Source: Saccharothrix violaceirubra
GTDB lineage: Bacteria; Actinomycetota; Actinomycetes; Mycobacteriales; Pseudonocardiaceae
Reading direction: 5' to 3'
Length of the DNA stretch: 64,000 nt
NCBI RefSeq assembly: GCF_014203755.1
Contig: NZ_JACHJS010000001.1
Span: 5,952,001-6,016,000, forward strand
Position 1 is the first letter of the stretch. The number at the start of each line of letters is the position of its first letter. Both the position numbers and the translations under genes were made by a program. Positions 3,447 to 14,395 of this stretch are shown here, one piece after another. The notes beneath the pieces are model-generated. The model saw only the letters and a program-made list of their open reading frames with translations. It was not told the DNA's origin and did no database searches.

Positions 3447-3773
3447 CTAGACGTGGTCGGCCCGCAACGCCGACGACGCCACCGACACCGACAACGCGGT
3501 CCGAAGGAGGATGCCGTCCTGCCCGACGAAGGCGCGGGACGTGCCGATCCGGTCGAGGGTGTCGAGGTCGACGGCGCCCAGGCCGAAGGCGAACACGGCG
3601 GGGTGCGGCGGCCAGCCGGGGTCCACCAGGGCCGCGAACGCCTCCGCCCAGGTCGCCGAGTCGGTCGGGCGGCAGTCGGAGACGAGGAAGACGACCGGCC
3701 GCCGGACCCGGTGGCGTGCCTTCAGCCTCGGTGCCACCGCACGATCCGGCTCTGATCCGCGCAGACACTGCGC
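3447..3773 (-). pseudogene. Truncated vWA-domain (TerY-like) protein, N-terminus missing
   Basis: The frame encodes the C-terminal half of a TerY-like von Willebrand A domain: RPVVFLVSDCRPTDSATW, then HPAVFAFGLG, then DTLDRIGTSRAF. Full TerY-type proteins are about 210-230 aa and begin with a metal-binding DxSxS motif. Here the frame begins directly at the jetC stop codon (3,774-3,776), so the MIDAS strand is absent. The expected SDG is also SDC. I infer a deletion that fused jetC's 3' end to the middle of an old vWA gene. A GTG at 3,737 could start a 96-aa product, but it would lack the fold's first strand. Confidence 0.65.
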
Positions 3774-6700
3774 TCAGTCGTCCTCGCCCACCTCTTCATC
3801 GACCACCTCGGCGCCGTTCCACACGAACCGGGCGGTGGTGACGGCGTCGTCGTCGCCACCGCTGATCAGCTGGTGGATCGCGATGCCGTCCAACTCGCGG
3901 TAGGTGCACCACTCGTGGTCGGAGGTGAGGACCAGGTCGAGGTCCAGCGCCGACAGCAGTTCGAACACCTGGCCGCGGTTGACGGTGTCGACACCGACGA
4001 AGACCTCGTCCAGCAGGATGACCCGAGGCGCTCCGGTGACGGCCTGGTAGTGGGCGGCCACGGCGGCGAACAACGGCAGGTGCAGCGCGATCGCCTTCTC
4101 CCCACCCGACAGCGCGCCGTGGAGCTTCTTGGTCAGGGGCTGCCAGCCCGTCCCGTTCATGCGGTCGACCTTCACCACGAACCTGTGCCAGGCCGTGTAG
4201 TCGAACACCTGCCCCAACTGCTGTTCCCAGTTGGTGGCCGTCTCGTCGCCCTTGGCCTGCCCGACCCGGTCGCGGAAGAACCGGTGCAGCGACTCGCGGT
4301 CCTCCTCGGTCAACCGCACGGGGTCCTTGAGCAGGAGGTCACGAGCCGCTTTCGTGCCCGGTGGAAGCTCGGGCGAGACCTCCCACACCAGCCGAACCGC
4401 CACCTTGGAAGCGGTGCGCACGCGCTCCAAGCGGGCGTTCATGCCGTCGACCAGGTCGTGCGCCTGCCGTATCCGGGCGGCGAGGTGGCGGCGGGTGTCC
4501 CCGGTGAGGGTCCGGTCGAACAGCTCGCGCTCCTGCGCGGTGATGTCCTGCCTGCTGCGTTCCGCGTCGGACCGCAGCAGGTCCGACAGGGCCGAAGCGC
4601 CGATCCTCACCCCGTCCACCATCGCGGAGAAGATCTGGACGTCCTCGTCGGAGTCGAGTTCGAGGTCGGCCCGACCACCCAAAATCTCGCGGGAGGCGTG
4701 CACCTCCTCCGCCAACCGGTGTGCGGCATCGCCAAGGTTCTTCGGCGAGTGCGCCAACGCCGGCCACGCGGCCGCGACCGACCGCGCGGCGTCGAGCGCT
4801 GCCCGGACACCACTCGACGCCGTCAGCACCCGTCCGAACGCGGACAGGTCGTCCAGACCGCTGTCGGCGGGCAGGCTGCCGTCCGCCAGGTGTCGGAACC
4901 GCACCGCGGCCTGGTCGCGTACCTCGGTGGCGCGGTCGCGGTCACGCGCGTCGGTGGCCCGCCGGTTGGTGAGTTCTCCCAGGCGCTGCGCCAGGGTGCC
5001 GATCTCCTTCTGATTGGCACTCGCCTCCCGCCTCGTCGAGTCCAGCCGCTCGCGCAGCACGGCGAGTTCGTCCAACACCTGTCGGTAGTCGAAGCCGATG
5101 GCGCCTTCCACGGCGTCCAGCTCGCTGTCGAGTCCTCGGCCCACGGCTTCGGCGTCGTCGGCCTCGTCCTCGCGCTGTTCGGCGACGTGCCGGGACCGCT
5201 GAGCCTGCTCGGCGGTCCGGTCCGCTTCCCGGCGTGCCGCGAGCAGAGCGGTGTGCTCGTCGATCCAGGCATCGGACGCGGTCCGGAAGGCGGCCACGGC
5301 GGCCACGACCGCGGTGAGCGCTTCCCGTTCGGCGGGCAGGCCGTGTTCGGCTGCCGTCGTGGTCAGCGCACGCAGGGCGCGGTCCACGCGCTGCTCGCTC
5401 TTCGCGAGGCCATCCAGTGATCGCCGAACCACACCGTCGGCGCTGTAGACCAGCGAATCCGCTCTGGTCAGGGCTTCCAGTGCCGCGTTCGCACCGGTGT
5501 GGTCGGGCCGAGCGTGCCGGTCGGCCTCGACGTCGGACCTGCGTTCGGCCAGGGACCGCAAGGCGGCCGTATGCGTCCCGATCAGTCCTTCCTGGACGGC
5601 GATCCGCTCACGAAGTCCGGTCAACCGGCGCTGCCGGGCCCGTTGTCTGGCGAGCGCGCCGATGTGCGAAGTCTCGTCCTTGCGCCAAGTGCCACGCAGA
5701 TTGCCGATGCGCCAACCGCCGTCGGCTCCGATGGCGACCGGGTGGACTTCGGGCAGGTCCTCCCCGTAGGCCACCCCGCCGAGCAGTCGGGCGACGACGT
5801 CCGCGGCGACAGGCGGGTCGACCTCGGGCACGAGGACGTCGGCGAGGGAGCGACCCGGCGCGGGCGGCACGGCGCCGGGCTCGGCGAACGTGTCGTGCCC
5901 GACGACCGCGCCGTCGTGGCCGACCCAGGCGTCCAGGAGCCCGGACGCCTGGAGCGCGGCCTCCACCGACGCGCGGACGTCGTCGGGCACCGCGTCGGTG
6001 AACCGGACCAGGCGCCACAGCGGTGCGCCGGTCATGGCCTGCCGGTCGGCGGTTCGCGTGTGCGGCGGCTGGGGAGGCAGGTCCTCCTCGGTCAGCAGCA
6101 GCCGGACCTCGTCGCGCAGCGCATCCCGATCGCGCTCGGCTGCCGCCAACGCCGTCCCGACCAGGGTCTCTTCCCGGGTGATGGTGTTCAGCACCCGGCT
6201 CGCAGCGGAATCGATCTTGGTCAGCATCGCGGTCTCCGACGCCGCGAGGTCGGCCAGTGCCTCGGGGTCGGCGAAGGTCAGCTCACGACAGCCCGCCGCC
6301 CACACCAGGACGGCGGCGCGGAGTTCCGCGAGCGCGGACTCGCGCCGGACGGCGGACTCGGCCCGCCGTTCGGTGGCCTCAGCCAGGGCTTCCCGTGCCT
6401 CGTCGAGCGCACGTTCCGCGTCCTGCCTGCTGTTGACCGCGACCTCGTGCTCGTTGAGAGCGGCGCGCACGGCCTCGACCTGCTCGGCACGTGCCTGGAC
6501 CGCGGCGCGCAGGAGAGCCCGCGCGCGTGAAGGTTCGGCGAGGACGCGGGCGATCTCGGCGTGCACCGAGGCGAGACCGACGCGGGCGGCGGCGGTCGAG
6601 GCACCATCGGCCAGCGCTCCCGCGGCCGCGGCCCGTGCCTGCGCGTGCCGGGCAGCGGTGTCGGCCGCTTCCGCGTCGGTCCGCGCGACCTGGCGGTGAC

Positions 6701-7835
6701 GGGCCGCGTCGGTACGCCTCTTCCCGGCGGTCGCACGAGCCTCGCGAACGCGGGTCCGCAACCGGTCGAGCTGTTCGCCCTTCCGGTACGCCTCGCTGCC
6801 GGTCAGGCCCTGGATTCGCCCGTCGGTCTCGACGATGCGGTGCTCCAGCAGCTCGCCGCGTTCTTCGGCCTCTTCTTTGTGCCGCACGGCGCGGCGGTGC
6901 TCGTCTTCCGAGAGTTTCGCGGCGTCCGCCAGGTTGCCCAGCTCCGTGGTGGCAGAGATCAGCTTCGCCGCCGCGGCACGCAGCACACGCTGCGCATACG
7001 CGCGTTGCCTGGTCTTGAGGTGCTGCGCGACCTCCACTTCCGCGTCGAGGCGTTTGAGCTGCTCGCGCTGCCGGTCCAAGCGCTCGAAGCCCTCCGCGAG
7101 GTCGCTGATCTCCGCCTCGCCCAGCGGCGGCAGCGCCTTGGACAACAACGCGGACAGCAGCCCGGGGTCGAGCCGCTGCGAGAGTTTCGGCGTGCGGAGC
7201 TGGAGCAGGGCCGTGATGAGCGCGTCGTAGCGCTGCTCGCTCAAGCCGGGGAACAGGGTCGAGCGCACGGCCGCCCGATAATCGGCCGCGTTCTGGTGGA
7301 GCGCGCCCAGGTCGCCGAGCGCCGCTTCCAAAGCCTTGCTGGTGAGGGGAGCGTTGTTCGGGTCGGTGAGGTCGAGGCCACCCGGTACGCCGATGCGCTG
7401 CCCTGTGGTGAAGTAATCCGGGTGCACCGCGGTGGTGTGCCTGGTCGCGGCGAGCCGCGCGCCGCATGAGAACCACCTGTCCGGCGAGCCGTCAACGCCG
7501 GGGAAGCGGAACTCCAGCCACACGTACCCGACCCTCGTGGTGCCGGTCGCCCCTTCTCCCATCAGGTTCCAGTGCATGGTCCGCTCGGAGGTGCCGAACG
7601 TGGAGAGCCGGTTGGCGCGCAGGTTGGCGTCGAACAGGAACGGCAGGAGCAGCTCCAACGCCTTCGACTTGCCGGTGCCGTTGGGGCCACGCAGCAACAA
7701 CCGTCCTTTGTGGAACCTGAAGACCTCGTCGTAGTAGCGCCACACGTTCAGGATCCCGGCGCGTTCGGGCACCCACCTGGCCACCGCCTCCGGCGTGGCA
7801 CCGCTCTCCGCGCGTGGCAGCCCGGTCACCGTCAC
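3774..7835 (-). CDS. jetC: Wadjet SMC-like ATPase JetC (TIGR02680 family)
   Basis: This 1,353-aa protein is the motor subunit of Wadjet, an SMC-like complex (MukB/MksB relatives) that extrudes and cleaves circular plasmid DNA. The Walker A motif GPNGTGKS is at residues 50-57. A very long Ala/Arg/Glu-rich region of about 1,000 residues (coiled-coil arms and hinge) follows. Near the C-terminus are the ABC signature LSGGEKA (about 1,242) and Walker B VILLDEVF (about 1,272). The order and length match the TIGR02680 family of actinobacterial four-gene loci. The start GTG 7,835 overlaps the jetB stop by 4 bases (GTGA), showing translational coupling. The ATPase motifs look intact. Confidence 0.93.
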   Translation of the reverse strand: MTVTGLPRAESGATPEAVARWVPERAGILNVWRYYDEVFRFHKGRLLLRGPNGTGKSKALELLLPFLFDANLRANRLSTFGTSERTMHWNLMGEGATGTTRVGYVWLEFRFPGVDGSPDRWFSCGARLAATRHTTAVHPDYFTTGQRIGVPGGLDLTDPNNAPLTSKALEAALGDLGALHQNAADYRAAVRSTLFPGLSEQRYDALITALLQLRTPKLSQRLDPGLLSALLSKALPPLGEAEISDLAEGFERLDRQREQLKRLDAEVEVAQHLKTRQRAYAQRVLRAAAAKLISATTELGNLADAAKLSEDEHRRAVRHKEEAEERGELLEHRIVETDGRIQGLTGSEAYRKGEQLDRLRTRVREARATAGKRRTDAARHRQVARTDAEAADTAARHAQARAAAAGALADGASTAAARVGLASVHAEIARVLAEPSRARALLRAAVQARAEQVEAVRAALNEHEVAVNSRQDAERALDEAREALAEATERRAESAVRRESALAELRAAVLVWAAGCRELTFADPEALADLAASETAMLTKIDSAASRVLNTITREETLVGTALAAAERDRDALRDEVRLLLTEEDLPPQPPHTRTADRQAMTGAPLWRLVRFTDAVPDDVRASVEAALQASGLLDAWVGHDGAVVGHDTFAEPGAVPPAPGRSLADVLVPEVDPPVAADVVARLLGGVAYGEDLPEVHPVAIGADGGWRIGNLRGTWRKDETSHIGALARQRARQRRLTGLRERIAVQEGLIGTHTAALRSLAERRSDVEADRHARPDHTGANAALEALTRADSLVYSADGVVRRSLDGLAKSEQRVDRALRALTTTAAEHGLPAEREALTAVVAAVAAFRTASDAWIDEHTALLAARREADRTAEQAQRSRHVAEQREDEADDAEAVGRGLDSELDAVEGAIGFDYRQVLDELAVLRERLDSTRREASANQKEIGTLAQRLGELTNRRATDARDRDRATEVRDQAAVRFRHLADGSLPADSGLDDLSAFGRVLTASSGVRAALDAARSVAAAWPALAHSPKNLGDAAHRLAEEVHASREILGGRADLELDSDEDVQIFSAMVDGVRIGASALSDLLRSDAERSRQDITAQERELFDRTLTGDTRRHLAARIRQAHDLVDGMNARLERVRTASKVAVRLVWEVSPELPPGTKAARDLLLKDPVRLTEEDRESLHRFFRDRVGQAKGDETATNWEQQLGQVFDYTAWHRFVVKVDRMNGTGWQPLTKKLHGALSGGEKAIALHLPLFAAVAAHYQAVTGAPRVILLDEVFVGVDTVNRGQVFELLSALDLDLVLTSDHEWCTYRELDGIAIHQLISGGDDDAVTTARFVWNGAEVVDEEVGEDD

Positions 7836-9064
7836 GACTCGTCCTCGACGTCGTCGGTGCTCGTCCGGCTCACCGCGTAGCGGGTGGCGACGGGCCGGGC
7901 ACGCACCACACCGCTGTCGAGCCGGACGAGGCCGAACGCCTTGAGCACGTCCACCGCGTCGGCGACCAGCCGAGTGGCACCGTCCTCGCCGCGGTAGCCC
8001 TTGGCCCACTTCGGGAAGCGGCCCAGCAGTGCGTCGGCCTCGGTGCGCAACTGCTCGACGGCGACCGGTCCGGGCGCGGACGTGATCACGTCGAGCAGCA
8101 GCAGGGCGGCGATCTTGGCGTTGCCGGAGTCGTCGGGGAACCGATTGTCCGTGGCCACGCCGTCCGGGTCGATCAACATGACGCCTTCGGCCCGTTCCTC
8201 CACCAGCAACCCGGCCTGGTCGGCGGCCCGGCGCAGGAGCTGCCCGCCGGTCGGTGACGACAGGTAGGCCAGTTCCGCGGGCGTCAGGTCGTCGCGGTGC
8301 ACGACCGGGTCGTCGACCAGCTTGCGGAACACCGAGTGCCGCAGCCACAGGTTGCGCTGGACCTCGGAGGCCGGTTCGTCGGTGTCGCCGTACCGCCGCT
8401 CGCGGGACAACCGCGTCAGCAGCTCGGTGAAACGCAACGGCACCTCGTCGGCCGGGACCGCTACCTGCGACGCACCGACCGGGCTCACCAGCAGGCGCAT
8501 GAGCAGCGTCGCGTCCACCCGGTAGAGGACTTTCGCGTCGGCGGAGTCCACGAACGACTCCGTGGCGCCGTCCACGACGTCGACCGCGCCGACCGACTCC
8601 AGCAGCCGCAGCGCGTCGACGAAAGCCATCCGCTCGGCGCGGCTGGACGTGTCGAACGGCGGCAGCACCGGGTCCACGGCCGACGCCTGGACGACGCGGT
8701 CCGCCAACAACCCGACCGTGGTCACCGGCACCCCCAGCAACTCGGCGGCCACTACGCACAGCAGGGTGTACCGGCGGCGGTCGAACGGCGCCCGCCCCGT
8801 GCGGTGCCGTCGTGCCGGGCGAGTCGGGTCGTCGGCGACCCGGACCTTGGCCAACCGCGCGTACCCCAGGCGGGGCTCGACGACCAGCGACCACCCGCAG
8901 TAGTAGTCGAACCACTTCTCGACGGGTTCGCGCCGCCTGCGCACGAGGTCGAAGGCCTCCGGTGCGGTCCTCGCCCCGATCAGCGGCGTCGCCAGCAGCA
9001 AGCGGATGGCCCGCGCCACCTCCTCGCGCTCCGCGATGACCAGTTGGTTCGCCAGGTTGCTCAT
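7832..9064 (-). CDS. jetB: Wadjet subunit JetB (DUF2398 / TIGR02678 family)
   Basis: This 410-aa protein resembles the TIGR02678/DUF2398 family, the small kite-like (MukE/MksE-like) subunit that bridges JetA and JetC. It is winged-helix-rich and has no catalytic motif. Recognisable segments are the N-terminal AIRLLLATPLI, WFDYYCGWSL, the RRYTLLCVVAAELL helix, and LWLRHSVFRKL in the middle. ATG 9,064 overlaps the jetA stop (ATGA) and its own stop overlaps the jetC start, so the three genes are strictly coupled. An open frame continues upstream of this ATG inside jetA, but that is the non-coding alternative frame. Confidence 0.9.
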   Translation of the reverse strand: MSNLANQLVIAEREEVARAIRLLLATPLIGARTAPEAFDLVRRRREPVEKWFDYYCGWSLVVEPRLGYARLAKVRVADDPTRPARRHRTGRAPFDRRRYTLLCVVAAELLGVPVTTVGLLADRVVQASAVDPVLPPFDTSSRAERMAFVDALRLLESVGAVDVVDGATESFVDSADAKVLYRVDATLLMRLLVSPVGASQVAVPADEVPLRFTELLTRLSRERRYGDTDEPASEVQRNLWLRHSVFRKLVDDPVVHRDDLTPAELAYLSSPTGGQLLRRAADQAGLLVEERAEGVMLIDPDGVATDNRFPDDSGNAKIAALLLLDVITSAPGPVAVEQLRTEADALLGRFPKWAKGYRGEDGATRLVADAVDVLKAFGLVRLDSGVVRARPVATRYAVSRTSTDDVEDES

Positions 9065-10617
9065 CCGGTCGTCGCCGCCCCTTCGGCAGGTCCCCGGGGT
9101 CGTCGTGCCGCCCGGCCACCCGGCGTGCGGATCTCGATGTCGTAGTCCGGGCCGGTGAACACACCGCGCGGAGTCCTGAGCACCGCCTGCTCGTGCTGCG
9201 CCCCCGGCGGCCTCAACAGGATCTCCACCCGCCCGTCGCCCGTGGTGGCCCGGTGGACGCCGTGCCGGTCCGGCGTCGCGGCCAGGGCCCGTCCGAGCAG
9301 GTCGAGCAGCCGTTCGAGCACCTCGTGGTCCAACCTCCCGAACCGCGACAACCTCGTGCCACCGGCGGTGTCCAACCGGTCCCACGCGGCCTTCAGCGCG
9401 GCCCGCTCCGCACGAGCCGACTCGGCGCGCGCCGCTTTGACCGCGGCCACGTCGCGCACCCGCCCGGTGCGGGTGAACCGCTCGGTCCGCCCCGCGCTGC
9501 GCAGCAACGCCGACACCTGCACCGGTGGCGCGTCGACCCACCGGGCCGACGACACCACGAGTTCCGGGTCGGGGTGCGCGAGGTGCGCGTGCCGGGCCGA
9601 GCCGAGCCCGAAGGCGGTCGACCACAGCAGGTGCAGGTCCTCCTCGGTCGGTGCGACCGCGAACCAGCGCGCCAGCTCGCGGAAGTCCGCCGCCGCACTG
9701 GTCGACCTGCGCCTGGACTCGGTGATCCGGTCGAGCACCTGCAACAACGCGATGATCGCGCGCCTGGCGACCACGAACAGCTGCTGGACCCGGGGCGTGC
9801 CGCCGTCGACCGGCAGGAACCACGCGCGCAGCCCCTCCCACCTGGCCCGGCGCAGTTCCAGCCACGCCACCGCCGGATCACCACCCGACGTGGGCGGGAG
9901 TTCGGCGCCCACCAGCGCGCGGTGGCGCAAGAGGACCACTCCCCGGTCCTCGACCAGCCCGACCCGGTTGGCGATCGCGTGCGCCCGCTGCTCCAGGTTC
10001 GTGGTGAACTCCTGGAGGTACGCCACGGTCGCCGACTTGACCTCGCGGAACGTCTCCTGGTCGGGCCCCTCCGCCCGCAACAGGCGCTGCAACTCGCCGT
10101 TGAACTGCTTCGTGTTGCCCCGCAACGCCTCCAGGTGTCCCTCCAGCTCGACCAGCGTGCTGAAGATCCGGCGATCCGGCACACCGGGATCGCCCAGTTG
10201 CGCGACCAGCTCACCGAGCCGGTCCGCGATCGCGTCGAGCACCGCCGTCTGGAGCGCGCCCGTCGAGGCCAGTACGCCCATCGCGTGCACCACGCCGGCC
10301 AGGGCGGCTTCGCCGCGTTTGGTCAAGGAGTACTGAAGGTTGCGCCGCTCGTACTCGTCGGCGGTCCGGTAGTCCTCGGCGTGGTTCTGGGTGATGTCGA
10401 GCAGCCGCCAGTCGCGCAGGCTCCCCAGTGCCGCGGTCAGGTCCTTGTCGTCCAGCGGGTCGAGCCGGCCCAGCGAGCGGAGCCTGCCCCGCACGTCGTC
10501 CAGCCCCAGAGCGGTCTCCAACCGCTCGTTGGCCTCACCGAACGCGTGCAGGATCGCCACGTACAACTCGGCTCGCTCGCCCGTGGTGAACCGGAACATC
10601 TCCGGCGGCACGCGCAT
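9061..10617 (-). CDS. jetA: Wadjet kleisin-like subunit JetA (DUF2397 / TIGR02677 family)
   Basis: The 518-aa protein resembles the TIGR02677/DUF2397 family, the kleisin-like (MukF/MksF) subunit that closes the JetC ring. It opens with the typical MFRFTTGERAELYVAILHAF, then DVRGRLRSLG and a winged-helix segment, and continues through long helices (DRIFSTLVELEGHL-like, TVAYLQEFTTNLEQ). The start is uncertain: ATG 10,617 has a close GGAGG, while TTG 10,626 or GTG 10,632 lie just after a strong GGGAGGAGG. The product changes by at most five residues. The gene begins 38 bases after the jetD stop and overlaps jetB by 4 bases. Confidence 0.9.
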   Translation of the reverse strand: MRVPPEMFRFTTGERAELYVAILHAFGEANERLETALGLDDVRGRLRSLGRLDPLDDKDLTAALGSLRDWRLLDITQNHAEDYRTADEYERRNLQYSLTKRGEAALAGVVHAMGVLASTGALQTAVLDAIADRLGELVAQLGDPGVPDRRIFSTLVELEGHLEALRGNTKQFNGELQRLLRAEGPDQETFREVKSATVAYLQEFTTNLEQRAHAIANRVGLVEDRGVVLLRHRALVGAELPPTSGGDPAVAWLELRRARWEGLRAWFLPVDGGTPRVQQLFVVARRAIIALLQVLDRITESRRRSTSAAADFRELARWFAVAPTEEDLHLLWSTAFGLGSARHAHLAHPDPELVVSSARWVDAPPVQVSALLRSAGRTERFTRTGRVRDVAAVKAARAESARAERAALKAAWDRLDTAGGTRLSRFGRLDHEVLERLLDLLGRALAATPDRHGVHRATTGDGRVEILLRPPGAQHEQAVLRTPRGVFTGPDYDIEIRTPGGRAARRPRGPAEGAATTG

Positions 10618-10655
10618 GGCCTCCAACAGCACCCTCCTCCCACCGGTCGAGCACG

Positions 10656-11891
10656 CTACGGCAGACCACCGACATCCCGTCCGCGATCGTCGAGTTCGTC
10701 CAAGAGCCGCGCGGTGACCCGTTCCTCCGGAACCGCCGATCCGTGCTCGCGCATCGCACCCGCCAGCCCACCGTCCCACGGTGCCTCGGTGACCCGTCCC
10801 ACCGAGGTGCCGACGCGTGCGCCGCCCAGCGCGGACAGGTAGTCGTCGGCGGCCATGCGCCACGGCACCGCGCCGGTGCGCGCCATCACGTGCGCGGCGA
10901 TCCGCACGCCCTCGCCGTCGAAGTCCCCGTGGTAGCGCAGCGTCGCCCCGGCCGTGCTCAGACCACGCAGGAGCACGATCACCGCACTGTTGGGCCAGCC
11001 CGACGTGCACACCACCGGCGGGCACGAAACGCCGAAGCGGACCACCGCCACCGCGAGCACGCTCGGGTTCTCGAACACCCACACGTCCTCGGGTGTCCCG
11101 ACGAACGAGGTCGCCCGGACCTGCGCCAGGGTCAGGGCCGCGACGTGCCCCGCGTCGGCGCACACGCGCAGCACCCCGCCCCCGACACCGCCCAACCGCA
11201 GGCCGGCGACCAGAACGACCGGGGACAACTCGTCCTCGACCACGCCGGCGCGCTCCCACAGCGCCCGCCGCTCCTGCGCGTCTCCCGGCGGGTCGACGCC
11301 GTACAGCACCGCCAGCGCCCGCAGGACCAACCCGGCGCACCGCGTTCCCTCGTCCAGGGCGTGCGGATCGCCGAGGACGGACTCCGCCAGCACCGGCAGC
11401 GGCACACCCGTGGCGGGCAACGCGGCGACGACCCGCAGGGCCCGGTCGAGCGCATCCCGGGTGCGCTCGACCGACCCACCGACGAGCCCGGCCCGCCGGA
11501 CGGCGCCCGCCCACTCCAGCAACGCCGGTTGAGCGACCACCACGGGGTGCCGGGTCACCCACTCCCACAACTCGGTCCGCGCCGCCCCGGCAAGCGCCCG
11601 CCGCGTGGCCCGGTCTTCCAGCGGTCCCGACAAGACCGCGACCACGTCGCGCACGCCCGCCCCCACCGACGAGATCAACAACTCGTCGAGCGCGGCCACC
11701 GACACCGTCGTGTACTCACCCGGCAGGCGCTCGTCCCCCAGCAGATCGGCCACGGCCGCCCGCTGCTCCTCGTCGAGGGGACCGACCTTCACCCGGCTGA
11801 CCGGGCGTCCGGACGACAACCGGTCGTGCACGGCCCGCCACAGGGGTCGCAGGGCAGCGGAGTCGAGCCCGTTCAACGAACGCACGACCAC
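10656..11891 (-). CDS. jetD: Wadjet Toprim nuclease subunit JetD (TIGR02679 / DUF3323-DUF2399)
   Basis: The 411-aa protein matches the TIGR02679 family. JetD is the nuclease of Wadjet and resembles the topoisomerase VI A subunit. The Toprim glutamate lies in VFENPSV (about E274). The acidic metal-binding pair is in YHGDFDGEG (D323 and D325). The N-terminal half carries the DUF3323-like winged-helix region (VGPLDEEQRAAVADLL). The start is GTG 11,891, with TGA as stop. In families I recall, jetD usually comes last, but here it is transcribed first. It follows a 444-aa gene by only 6 bases. The catalytic residues look intact, so the system could be active. Confidence 0.92.
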   Translation of the reverse strand: MVVRSLNGLDSAALRPLWRAVHDRLSSGRPVSRVKVGPLDEEQRAAVADLLGDERLPGEYTTVSVAALDELLISSVGAGVRDVVAVLSGPLEDRATRRALAGAARTELWEWVTRHPVVVAQPALLEWAGAVRRAGLVGGSVERTRDALDRALRVVAALPATGVPLPVLAESVLGDPHALDEGTRCAGLVLRALAVLYGVDPPGDAQERRALWERAGVVEDELSPVVLVAGLRLGGVGGGVLRVCADAGHVAALTLAQVRATSFVGTPEDVWVFENPSVLAVAVVRFGVSCPPVVCTSGWPNSAVIVLLRGLSTAGATLRYHGDFDGEGVRIAAHVMARTGAVPWRMAADDYLSALGGARVGTSVGRVTEAPWDGGLAGAMREHGSAVPEERVTARLLDELDDRGRDVGGLP

Positions 11892-11897
11892 ACCCTG

Positions 11898-13232
11898 TCA
11901 GAGCCCGGCTCCGCGGACCCCGGCCGGGAGGACGTACCCCAACTTGAGCAGTGCCTTGCGGAACTTCGGCTCCTGGTCCGGCCGGACGGCGAGGTGGCGG
12001 TCACCGATCGGGCGGCACAGCCCGCGCAAGGCACGGTCACGGGTGATCAACGTGGCGAGTGCCGGATCGAGGCACTCGATGACACGGACATGCCCGAAAT
12101 CGGTCAGCCGCGAACCCCGCCGCTCGACATCCGCGACCAGCGTGCGCACCGCGTCGGGCAGCTCATGCCCGGTCCGCGCAACGAGGAATTCGACGAACTC
12201 ACCGAGGTCGCGACCGTTGTCGAGCGCCGTGAGCAGGCCGGCCGCCGACACCGTCCAGACCCGGTCGGCGGTCTGCTCCGCGTAGGCGGACAGGACGAGC
12301 CGGTCCGCGGCACCGATGTCACCCATCGCGACGACGTCGAGGTTGGGCAGCACCTTCAGCGGCCGGGCCCCGGCGGTCGTGGGCTCGGGCGGCTGGTAGG
12401 CGTCGGTCAGACCGAGGGCGTAAGCGCCCAGCGCGGTGAGCCTGATCGCCACGAGCCCGTCGTAGCGGCTCAACGCGTCCAGGTCGTCACCACCCCAGTT
12501 GTCGACGTAGTCGTCACGCGCACCACGCGGGTCGACGTAGTCGAGGTCGATCAACCCGAGCGTGCCCGCGTACTCGAACAACACGGCCAGGGTGTAGCGA
12601 CCTTCGAGGAGTTCCCAGTCGTGGTGCCCGTCGTAGCCGAGGCTGCCGTACTCCGGGTCGACCAGGTAGAGCTTCCACACCGCCCTGTCGTTGCGGGCGA
12701 TGGTGGGACTCATGTTGCCGCGCCGCATGGCGGTGAACAGGAAGTCCACGTCGACCCATTTGTCCGGCGGGCAGCCGGCCAACGCCGCGGCGACCGCCTG
12801 TCGCCGGGTCTTGGCCGCGGTGAGCACGTTGCGGGCCTGCTGGCCCTTGATCTGCTCGACCCGGCTGAACTCGTCGATCACCGCGTGGGTGAGCCAGCGC
12901 CGCCACAGGTCCCGAATGACCTCGGCGGACGGCTTCCCGAGCGCCGCACGCCCTTTCGGGGTCAACCGGAGGCAAGTGCCGTCAAGTGTCGCCAGCCCAC
13001 CGGCCTGGAGCAACAACGGCCACGCGAACGCCGCGATGGGCTCGTCGTCGTAGAAGTCACCGCCCACCAGGTGCGCGCCGACGGTCCGCACGGTCGCGGC
13101 GGACGGACGCCTGGTCTTGTCGCTGCACTTCACCTTCTGCGCCGCGCACAGTTCGAGCACTGCACGCAGGTTGGCCAGGGCTTCCTCCTCGGTGAACCGC
13201 ACCTGCTCCGGTGAGGAGTCCATCGAATTCAC
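11898..13232 (-). CDS. Uncharacterised 444-aa protein with helicase-associated (Helicase_C_3-like) region, coupled to jetD
   Basis: GTG 13,232 overlaps the stop of the upstream small gene (GTGA) and follows AGGGGG. ATG 13,223 is an alternative start. Residues 1-110 look like a winged helix (LRLTPKGRAALGKP). The centre is rich in Asp and aromatic residues (DYVDNWGGDDLDALSRYDG). Residues 280-370 (VLPNLDVVAMGDI, then AADRVWTVSAAGLLTALDNGRD, split here by one residue-level gap) resemble the XPB/Ssl2-type Helicase_C_3 domain found in actinobacterial helicase-associated proteins. No helicase motor motif is present. Its stop is 6 bases before the jetD start, so it should be made together with Wadjet. 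The role is unknown: a Wadjet accessory, or the partner of the broken helicase upstream. Confidence 0.7.
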   Translation of the reverse strand: MNSMDSSPEQVRFTEEEALANLRAVLELCAAQKVKCSDKTRRPSAATVRTVGAHLVGGDFYDDEPIAAFAWPLLLQAGGLATLDGTCLRLTPKGRAALGKPSAEVIRDLWRRWLTHAVIDEFSRVEQIKGQQARNVLTAAKTRRQAVAAALAGCPPDKWVDVDFLFTAMRRGNMSPTIARNDRAVWKLYLVDPEYGSLGYDGHHDWELLEGRYTLAVLFEYAGTLGLIDLDYVDPRGARDDYVDNWGGDDLDALSRYDGLVAIRLTALGAYALGLTDAYQPPEPTTAGARPLKVLPNLDVVAMGDIGAADRLVLSAYAEQTADRVWTVSAAGLLTALDNGRDLGEFVEFLVARTGHELPDAVRTLVADVERRGSRLTDFGHVRVIECLDPALATLITRDRALRGLCRPIGDRHLAVRPDQEPKFRKALLKLGYVLPAGVRGAGL

Positions 13233-13546
13233 GTCCCCCTTGCCCAACGGCGGTAGGCGTCGATCCACTGCGCGCCTTCCACCGGTGTGTCGGGCAGCGG
13301 CAGTTCCAGGACGGGAATCCGCTGCTTCGACCTACCACGCACGCAGACAGCCACGATCTGCTCGTCATCGGTCAGGTCCACACCCGTCACGATCACGTCC
13401 ACGCCCAGCACCACCGTCCGGAACGGCACGGCGAGGTACTCCTCGATCATGGTGTGGAATGCCGTGACGCATTCGCTGTCGTTGTAACAGTCGACAGTCG
13501 CCTCCGCGATCAGCGCGTCCAACGCAATCCGATTCGATCGGCTCAC
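13229..13546 (-). CDS. Small CcbP-like (calcium-binding) protein
   Basis: This roughly 105-aa acidic protein is made from GTG 13,546 (alternative GTG 13,564). The pattern NRIALDALIAEATVD, then a glutamate-bearing helix before the segment VPFRTVVLG, then VDLTDDEQIVAVC and a terminal DAYRRWARG, resembles the CcbP calcium-binding family first described in cyanobacteria. In actinobacteria such proteins also occur beside helicase-containing loci. The assignment is by pattern only. The stop overlaps the start of the 444-aa gene by 4 bases, so it belongs to the same leftward operon as Wadjet. Confidence 0.55.
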   Translation of the reverse strand: MSRSNRIALDALIAEATVDCYNDSECVTAFHTMIEEYLAVPFRTVVLGVDVIVTGVDLTDDEQIVAVCVRGRSKQRIPVLELPLPDTPVEGAQWIDAYRRWARGT

Positions 13547-13729
13547 GCCACGAGGTTCCCACACTCGATGACGGGACTTCCCCGGCCACGCGGCACGTGG
13601 TGACCGCGAGCGCCGGCATCTTCACCGCCACGCCTTCCGCCGACCACCTGTGGAGGCGACGACCGCGGCGGACCGCGCTCCGCGCCGCACCTGTCGTCGT
13701 ACTGCTGTTCATATGCCCTCCTCCCAGGG

Positions 13730-14395
13730 CCGCAGCGTCGATTACGGTGTCACCGAACTCGAAGTCGAACTCGGCGGTGCGGGCAAGGTCGCCTGCGTGG
13801 TCACCTCCGGCGCTGACTGTGGCGGACAGACCCACGCAGACCAGGCCCTCGACGTCGACATGGCCGCGCAGGCGACGCACCAGGCAGGCGATCTCGGTGC
13901 CCAACGCGCCCTGGTAGGTGTGCACCTCATCCAAGATCAAGTGCCGCAGCGCACCGTCCCCGAACAGCTTGCGGTCGTCGCGCCGGGTAAGCAGGTACTC
14001 GAGCATGGAGTAGTTGGTCAGCAGGATGTCCGGCGGAGCATCCTGCATCGCGTCCCGCACGTTTGCGGGGTTCCCCCGGTGTAAACCCCATGGCGCAGGC
14101 CGAGTTGCTCACAGGCTGCCTTGACACGATCCTCTTGATCGTTGACCAGGGCGTTCATCGGGTACAGCGCGATCGCTTTCACACCGCGGCGATGCCGGTT
14201 GGCGAAGGCGTGCGCGACGATTGGGATCAAGAACGCTTCTGTCTTGCCGGAGCCCGTCCCGGTAGCGACCAGCGTGTTCGATCCGGCGTGGATGCGGGTG
14301 ATCGCGGCGACCTGATGGGCGAACAGCCGCTCCACCCGAGGGACCGCCTCGCAGACCTGTGTTGCCGATCACGCTACGAAGCAGGTTCATGTCAC
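13730..14395 (-). pseudogene. Frameshifted, truncated DEAD/DEAH-box helicase (DUF1998-type N-terminal half)
   Basis: Two frames together give the first RecA-like domain of a large superfamily 2 helicase. From about 14,350: LFAHQVAAI, then P-loop ATGTGSGKTEAFL, then ALYPMNALVNDQ and GVYTGGTP. After a frameshift near 14,060 (one base appears missing in the run before ACGTGCGG) the text continues PPDILLTNYSMLEYLL, the DEVH box HLILDEVHTYQGALGTE, and the motif III region VGLSATV. The sequence then loses similarity near 13,730, and the second RecA domain, which should span another kilobase or more, is absent. It is dead unless the sequence is wrong. It was probably the motor of a defence locus together with the 444-aa gene and the CcbP-like gene. 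Confidence 0.75.

Follow-up and report, generated by a model that had tools for sequence, protein, structure and literature searches.

The present study concerns a predicted Wadjet system in Saccharothrix violaceirubra, located in a stretch of 64,000 nucleotides (nt; positions 5,952,001 to 6,016,000 of contig NZ_JACHJS010000001.1) that is hereafter referred to as the window. At positions 3774-11891, four contiguous genes are read from a single strand, the minus strand, in the order jetD-jetA-jetB-jetC, with the gene for the nuclease subunit transcribed first:

10656..11891, minus strand: jetD, first cistron, nuclease subunit of 411 amino acids (aa), TIGR02679, with PF11796 (DUF3323) and PF09664 (DUF2399)
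10627..10655, minus strand: spacer between jetD and jetA, no overlap, with the Shine-Dalgarno-like GGAGGAGGG at 10640-10632
9061..10626, minus strand: jetA, kleisin-type subunit, TIGR02677 and PF09660 (DUF2397)
7832..9064, minus strand: jetB, KITE-type subunit, TIGR02678 and PF09661 (DUF2398)
3774..7835, minus strand: jetC, SMC ATPase of 1353 aa, TIGR02680, with Pfam SbcC_Walker_B

Regarding the junctions, jetD begins with GTG, 6 nt past the stop of the upstream gene, and its own stop codon (10658-10656) is separated from jetA by a gap of 29 nt to a TTG at 10626 or of 38 nt to an ATG at 10617. The jetA stop overlaps the jetB ATG as ATGA (9064-9061) and the jetB stop overlaps the jetC GTG as GTGA (7835-7832), the true start of jetC being at 7835 within a longer open frame. 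The translation of jetC contains a Walker A motif (GPNGTGKS), a signature motif (LSGGEK), and a Walker B motif (LLDEVF), and JetD retains the TOPRIM-type Glu (in FENPS) and DxD (in DFDGEG), both of which are kept in all of the D-first JetDs that were aligned. No internal stop was found in any of the four genes. The first-pass annotation, which was made from the DNA letters alone, had described a complete Wadjet system with intact motifs and with these overlaps between jetA, jetB, and jetC; this description, including its coordinates, was borne out, and the check for a disabling mutation found none.

The four proteins matched their NCBIfam profiles over nearly the whole profile lengths, with bit scores (cut-offs in parentheses) of 317.9 (196) for TIGR02679, 484.3 (165.85) for TIGR02677, 339.3 (124.65) for TIGR02678, and 1121.6 (462.85) for TIGR02680, which are so far above the cut-offs that a chance match is excluded. 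The best PADLOC families were JetD2, JetA2, JetB2, and JetC2, all of type II, and by these labels the type number that the first-pass annotation had given with hesitation proved correct. By all of the family and gene tests run, the locus is classified as a complete type II Wadjet. JetC matched 9qe0_A in the PDB with an expectation value (E) of 3.2e-81, JetA matched 9qe0_E with E 2.6e-15, and JetB matched 9qe0_D weakly, with E 0.0036; entries 9qe0 and 9qe1 are presumably the nvJET complex of Neobacillus vireti, a bacterium of a different phylum from the host of the window, and nvJET thus offers sequence relatives of JetC and JetA and, weakly, of JetB. There was no PDB sequence match to JetD up to E 10. 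Its AlphaFold2 model (predicted local distance difference test [pLDDT] 93.7, predicted TM-score 0.61) matched the folds of 8b7f, 1d3y, and 7til, and the model accordingly places JetD among the TOPRIM nucleases with the JetD/MksG/TopoVI-A fold.

The position of jetD was assessed in three samples. An order-level sample of 229 genomes contained 65 JetD and 76 JetA places, which a script paired when they were on the same contig and within 12 kb; 53 JetDs had a linked JetA, which they followed in 45 cases, preceded in 5 (the genome of the window, G000, together with G111, G192, G214, and G223), and had on both sides in 3 (G097, G168, and G215). A phylum-level sample of 266 genomes, a few of which were shared with the first sample, gave 16 linked pairs that were read by hand: 14 with jetD after jetA, one divergent (G479), and one D-first, the locus of the window itself. 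The statement in the first-pass annotation that the nuclease gene normally comes after jetA is, therefore, consistent with both samples. Nearer to the window, the picture differed. In a scan of named species, an alignment of eight JetAs close to that of the window was used as the query, and the best 80 of 141 relatives comprised 40 loci with the order A-B-C-D, 27 with D-A-B-C, 9 with A-B-C, and 4 that were cut by a contig end (L085, L105, L147, and L149) and were left out, such that D-first accounted for 27 of the 76 classifiable nearest named loci. The 27 loci were distributed, according to the names in the records, over Nocardia (10), Amycolatopsis (4), Saccharothrix (3), Actinophytocola (2), Actinokineospora (2), and one each in Lentzea, Allokutzneria, Kibdelosporangium, Actinosynnema, Pseudonocardia, and an unplaced metagenome-assembled genome. 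A 4-nt overlap between the jetC stop and the jetD start was available in 36 of the 40 A-B-C-D loci, and a 4-nt overlap between jetD and jetA in only 3 of the 27 D-A-B-C loci.

Several other arrangements were encountered in these samples. A C-A-B-D order was found at L050:2021-9925, the divergently transcribed jetD was at G479:C89:76677-80538, and L066:4722-18802 contained a tandem array, A-B-C-D-A'-B'-C', with a single jetD directly before the second JetABC. In several Streptomyces genomes (L087, L093, L138, L139, and L141), jetC was broken into two or more frames, by sequencing error or decay. Twelve of the 65 JetD (DUF2399) places in the order-level sample had no JetA within 12 kb, such as G004:C2:980476-980916 and G112:C229:39734-40195, some of them being at contig ends and several on other contigs. 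Relatives of JetD were found in 23 of 72,556 plasmid records and in none of 50,697 phage records.

Within the genus Saccharothrix, the D-first lineage was present in 8 of 25 genomes, and all eight loci (the window and L154-L160, of which L157-L159 appear to be the same as the named loci L073, L072, and L071) have the order D-A-B-C. In a tree of concatenated JetA, JetB, and JetC sequences (85 rows; quick IQ-TREE, LG+G4, with support from the Shimodaira-Hasegawa-like approximate likelihood ratio test, SH-aLRT), 29 D-first and 9 D-less loci formed a single clade with a support of 100 within the A-B-C-D loci, and every JetD-bearing row of this 38-row clade was D-first. The first-pass annotation had suggested that the position of jetD might indicate a rearrangement; the trees argue that one took place, while its being peculiar to this locus was contradicted because the order is common to the nearest clade. 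A JetD tree of 74 rows placed all 29 D-first JetDs on one side of a branch with SH-aLRT 93, adjoining the JetDs that belong to related A-B-C-D loci, and by inspection it broadly agreed with the JetABC tree; this grouping indicates that the resident jetD was moved rather than replaced. One D-first locus, L100, is counted among the 27 and is absent from the trees. The order is, therefore, best explained by one old rearrangement, with a single putative origin in this sample. A tandem stage such as that of L066, followed by the loss of the first A-B-C, would give D-first.

An earlier tree included 40 hand-picked loci with 42 systems, the order counts of which (A-B-C-D 18, A-B-C 18 with L042 scored as D-less, D-A-B-C 5, and C-A-B-D 1) are not frequencies. 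Its 5 D-first and 6 D-less systems formed one clade of 11 with SH-aLRT 99. L042, from genome G201, has a weak DUF2399 place behind jetC (24.1 bits against a cut-off of 23.4), and when it was scored with JetD, the presence and absence of JetD required six changes on the tree, at least five of which were forced by well-supported branches; such counts cannot separate gain from loss. JetD loss among type II loci looks repeated.

All nine D-less loci of the D-first clade belong to Amycolatopsis, in the orientalis/azurea group. JetABC of the Amycolatopsis type without a jetD in the first position was observed at L067-L070, L106, L114, L121-L123, L128, L133, L137, and L144. In four of the nine (L121, L123, L128, and L133), a JetD that belongs to another system lay within the stretch examined, and the stretches of the other five gave no JetD match. 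Six genomes of the order-level sample carry this D-less locus, and G055, G069, G076, and G090 had no PF09664 match; G090 (23.6 bits) and G168 (22.1 bits), which both carry D-less JetABC, had weak places for the type I family JetD_C (PF09983) just above its cut-off. The mean ratios of nonsynonymous to synonymous substitutions (dN/dS) over the 36 pairs of the nine loci were 0.167 for JetA, 0.151 for JetB, and 0.170 for JetC, and those of D-bearing relatives (two sets of three loci) ranged between 0.092 and 0.289. The D-less JetABC is under purifying selection. Judging from gene content, this group is a lineage that has lost jetD and kept JetABC. Remnants of JetD were sought beside the D-less JetABC of Amycolatopsis and of Saccharothrix, and none were found; the only JetD beside some of these loci belonged to a distinct system nearby. 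The possibility that a conserved stretch at the N terminus of JetB was missing in the D-less loci was also considered, and was rejected by eye because FDL.RRRREP..WFDYYCGW is retained.

A second type II JetABC is present in the genome of the window, at G000:C1:6064748-6071320 (L051:6701-13342), outside the window. Its jetA, jetB, and jetC were found, with no JetD in the 19.9 kb around it. The only PF09664 place in this genome was the jetD of the window, and PF09983 had none; a search for the catalytically altered JetD described below gave only a weak match on the jetD of the window, and no fusion of JetD to a TIR domain was detected at E 1e-40. This second JetABC is, by its predicted genes, MksBEF-like in content, namely, JetABC without a nuclease, and it may use the JetD of the window in trans. 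JetA of this lineage was identified by score (395-426 bits) and span in all 25 Saccharothrix genomes; in four of the genomes with the D-first lineage (G000, G492, G494, and G507), both jet loci are on one contig, approximately 100-130 kb apart. All 15 second loci examined have the order A-B-C; 12 of the stretches lack a JetD-like gene and the remaining 3 contain a TIR fusion. No other conserved neighbour was found in the loci compared.

The JetDs of the second lineage that were aligned (L044-L047, L058, L165-L170, L174, and L175) have all had the catalytic Glu replaced; L043, which is outside these JetDs in the 42-system tree, retains it. The DxD is also broken in a subset:

L047:5443-6465, L058:12662-13684, and L165-L170: JetDs with a dead TOPRIM site by alignment, Glu and second Asp replaced

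A protein search from one of these dead JetDs returned 53 proteins, some of them fragments, of which 49 have Arg in the Glu column and 51 have Thr or Ser in the column of the second Asp; the named relatives were mostly from Saccharothrix and Lentzea. The dead JetD, 337 aa in length, was found in 8 of the 25 genus genomes, with additional contig-end pieces in G500. It is far from the second JetABC where the two share a contig (G491, G494, G504, and G507) and is on another contig in the other four. When its model (pLDDT 80) was used for a fold search, nothing matched at E 0.001, a result without weight in either direction. Considering these substitutions together with the loci described next, the JetD of the second lineage is apparently decaying: its active site has been lost, or its gene is gone or has been swapped for that of another enzyme.

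The swapped enzyme is a fusion of the JetD N terminus to a TIR domain, which was found at three loci:

L182:15818-16942, plus strand: JetD N terminus and TIR, behind a second JetABC
L185:1306-2412, minus strand: JetD N terminus and TIR, behind a second JetABC
L186:15828-16934, plus strand: JetD N terminus and TIR, behind a second JetABC

In G499, the fusion gene follows the second jetC by 37 nt, and in G498 and G502, it is approximately 1.7 kb after jetC, past another open reading frame (ORF). The Pfam scores were 81.6-87.3 bits for DUF3323 and 82.5-87.6 bits for TIR_2, and the best PADLOC family was the uncharacterised PDC-S66, due to the TIR part, with JetD2 matching residues 4 to 232-233 and a ThsB-type TIR at about 223-350. 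For the TIR half of P0055, a fusion of the G502 type, the NAD+ hydrolase AbTIR was among the PDB matches (E 7.3e-29). Seven such fusions (P0054-P0060) were found in the protein database, and the fusion of G498 shows 100% identity over 97% with a protein of Saccharothrix saharensis. At E 1e-40, fusions occurred in 3 of 390 genomes of the family, all of this genus and all behind the second JetABC, and in a tree of the N-terminal halves, they grouped with the JetDs of the second lineage (SH-aLRT 99).

Upstream of the jet genes in the window are two further genes:

11898..13268, minus strand: gene for a 456-aa protein with a weak match to PF13625 (Helicase_C_3), immediately upstream of jetD
13229..13564, minus strand: ORF of 111 aa upstream of the 456-aa gene, in a block approximately 91% alike with G494 and G507 (L155 and L156)

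Both were considered as core members of the system and rejected: none of 120 loci (L031-L150) had a tblastn match, and the block was shared by two of the seven other D-first loci of the genus. The 456-aa gene is a travelling neighbour outside the core system. The block shared around the locus extends over 3733-12113 of the window in the comparison with G492 and over 3767-13584 in that with G494; for G507, its extent is nearly that of G494. Adjoining these two genes, at 13365-14335 on the minus strand, are pieces of a DruE/DpdJ-like DEAD helicase, the profile matches of which end after the N-terminal few hundred positions, and which are likely the remnant of another defence locus. Past the end of jetC, at 154-2184 on the plus strand, is a gene for an NB-ARC/TPR protein (AfsR/HaaT-like); proteins approximately 33% identical to it sit behind the D-less JetABC of Amycolatopsis.

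Regarding known systems, JetABC has been described as sensing the shape of DNA and extruding loops and JetD as the nuclease, with most work having been on type I (PMC10586767). Wadjet has been reported in 42% of actinobacteria (PMC10482375). A type II Wadjet structure from N. vireti has been cited, and its nvJET, a Wadjet-II, is reported to cleave naked circular DNA (PMC12647877). In contrast to the window, the MksFEBG system of Corynebacterium glutamicum is of type I and has its nuclease gene last, in the order mksF-E-B-G (PMC10123090). The nearest A-B-C-D relatives of the window locus come from Streptomyces and Pseudonocardiaceae; these type II loci contain the same families with jetD last. 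MksBEF of Pseudomonas aeruginosa is JetABC-like without a nuclease and comparable to the D-less loci, which are here of type II. Lamassu, which uses TIR among its effector domains (PMC10586767), combines an SMC-like sensor with interchangeable effectors, whereas the TIR fusion described here uses the JetD N-terminal domain near a Wadjet JetABC. The literature searched, which mostly excludes subscription papers, yielded no description of a D-first order, of a type II Wadjet without JetD, or of a Wadjet-TIR.

By analogy with the Wadjets that have been studied, JetABC of the window would act as a dimeric SMC motor, loading onto DNA and extruding it as loops, and the complete extrusion of a small circle would activate a JetD dimer, the TOPRIM domain of which would cut the plasmid. 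In one ancestor, the descendants of which are now in Pseudonocardiaceae and Nocardiaceae, the trees suggest that the resident jetD was moved from behind jetC to before jetA; to judge from the junctions, the 4-nt overlap with jetC would have disappeared with the move, and jetD would have become the first cistron, with separate initiation. Among the descendants, the Amycolatopsis orientalis/azurea group would then have lost jetD and retained JetABC. We assign a probability of roughly 0.85 to the explanation that the locus represents a complete type II Wadjet and that D-A-B-C is an inherited trait of the clade, arising from a single move of the resident gene.

The rarity of D-first outside the clade, with 5 of 53 pairs in the order-level sample and only the locus of the window among the 16 pairs of the phylum-level sample, would suit a recent rearrangement specific to this locus or an assembly artefact; however, independent assemblies share the order at all eight loci of the genus and at 27 of 76 named loci across ten named genera, which leaves this explanation with almost no chance of being correct. 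Tandem arrays from which an adjacent jetABC could acquire a jetD are known, as at L066, and the jetD at the front may have been a foreign nuclease gene that came from another Wadjet lineage and replaced the resident one. This is improbable because the D-first JetDs lie together, beside the JetDs of related A-B-C-D loci and broadly matching the JetABC tree. About equally improbable, and if anything slightly more so, is that plasmid restriction by the locus has ceased and that it is maintained for organising the chromosome, a role proposed for MksBEF. In its favour, JetD or the JetD active site has been lost from relatives in both JetABC lineages, but the four genes of the window are intact, Glu and DxD are present in all aligned D-first JetDs, and JetD is under purifying selection in Saccharothrix (mean dN/dS 0.256 over three pairs).

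The inherited single move may also have been adaptive, by raising JetD synthesis or uncoupling it from that of JetC, or by allowing jetD to be switched separately. The 4-nt overlap between jetC and jetD has gone, a separate Shine-Dalgarno-like site precedes jetA, and several genera have retained the order; however, this persistence also fits a neutral change, and jetD was later lost in one group, and we regard an adaptive origin as unlikely, less so than the foreign-gene or chromosomal explanations. The move may, as the first-pass annotation suggested, alter the JetD:JetABC ratio, the one fact in favour being that a spaced junction between jetD and jetA stands in place of the 4-nt overlap with jetC; a neutral rearrangement is about as likely.

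Several points weigh against the inherited single move and the function assigned to the locus. The support of 93 for the JetD branch falls below the mark of 95, the trees are quick builds with SH-aLRT only, those of JetABC were made without a mixture model, meetings of long branches were flagged, and the last-to-first direction depends on the outgroup. The order counts of the named loci lean towards the neighbourhood of the window, given the query of eight JetAs, and the start of jetA, TTG at 10626 or ATG at 10617, was read from the sequence only. The flanks differ among members of the genus and the locus is in only 8 of its 25 genomes, and part of the spread may, therefore, be horizontal. Plasmid restriction by the locus is predicted from homology.

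A wider and more tentative interpretation, to which we give somewhat less than even odds, is that the effector slot of type II Wadjet is exchangeable. In the second JetABC lineage of the genus, JetD would have lost its Glu and, in some loci, then an Asp, and would have left the operon or vanished, to be replaced in some species by the fusion of the JetD N terminus to TIR. JetABC would then sense circular DNA and pass the signal to NAD+ loss, leading to death or dormancy, in place of plasmid cutting, or would act as a condensin where it has no effector, and the operon of the window would be the cutting system that some of these genomes have kept. The N-terminal domain of JetD may be what docks on JetABC.

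The gene order at this locus is real and modest in itself, and it may be neutral. Its value is in the series A-B-C-D, D-A-B-C, and A-B-C and in the companion JetD that is decaying or swapped. Since close relatives with all three arrangements may be compared in one laboratory host, the move of jetD represents a natural experiment on JetD dosage or on its coupling to JetC. If JetABC has repeatedly outlived its nuclease, with a conserved dead JetD or a TIR standing in for it in one lineage, it would become testable how JetABC passes its signal to an effector and whether condensins of the MukBEF/MksBEF type may have originated from defence.

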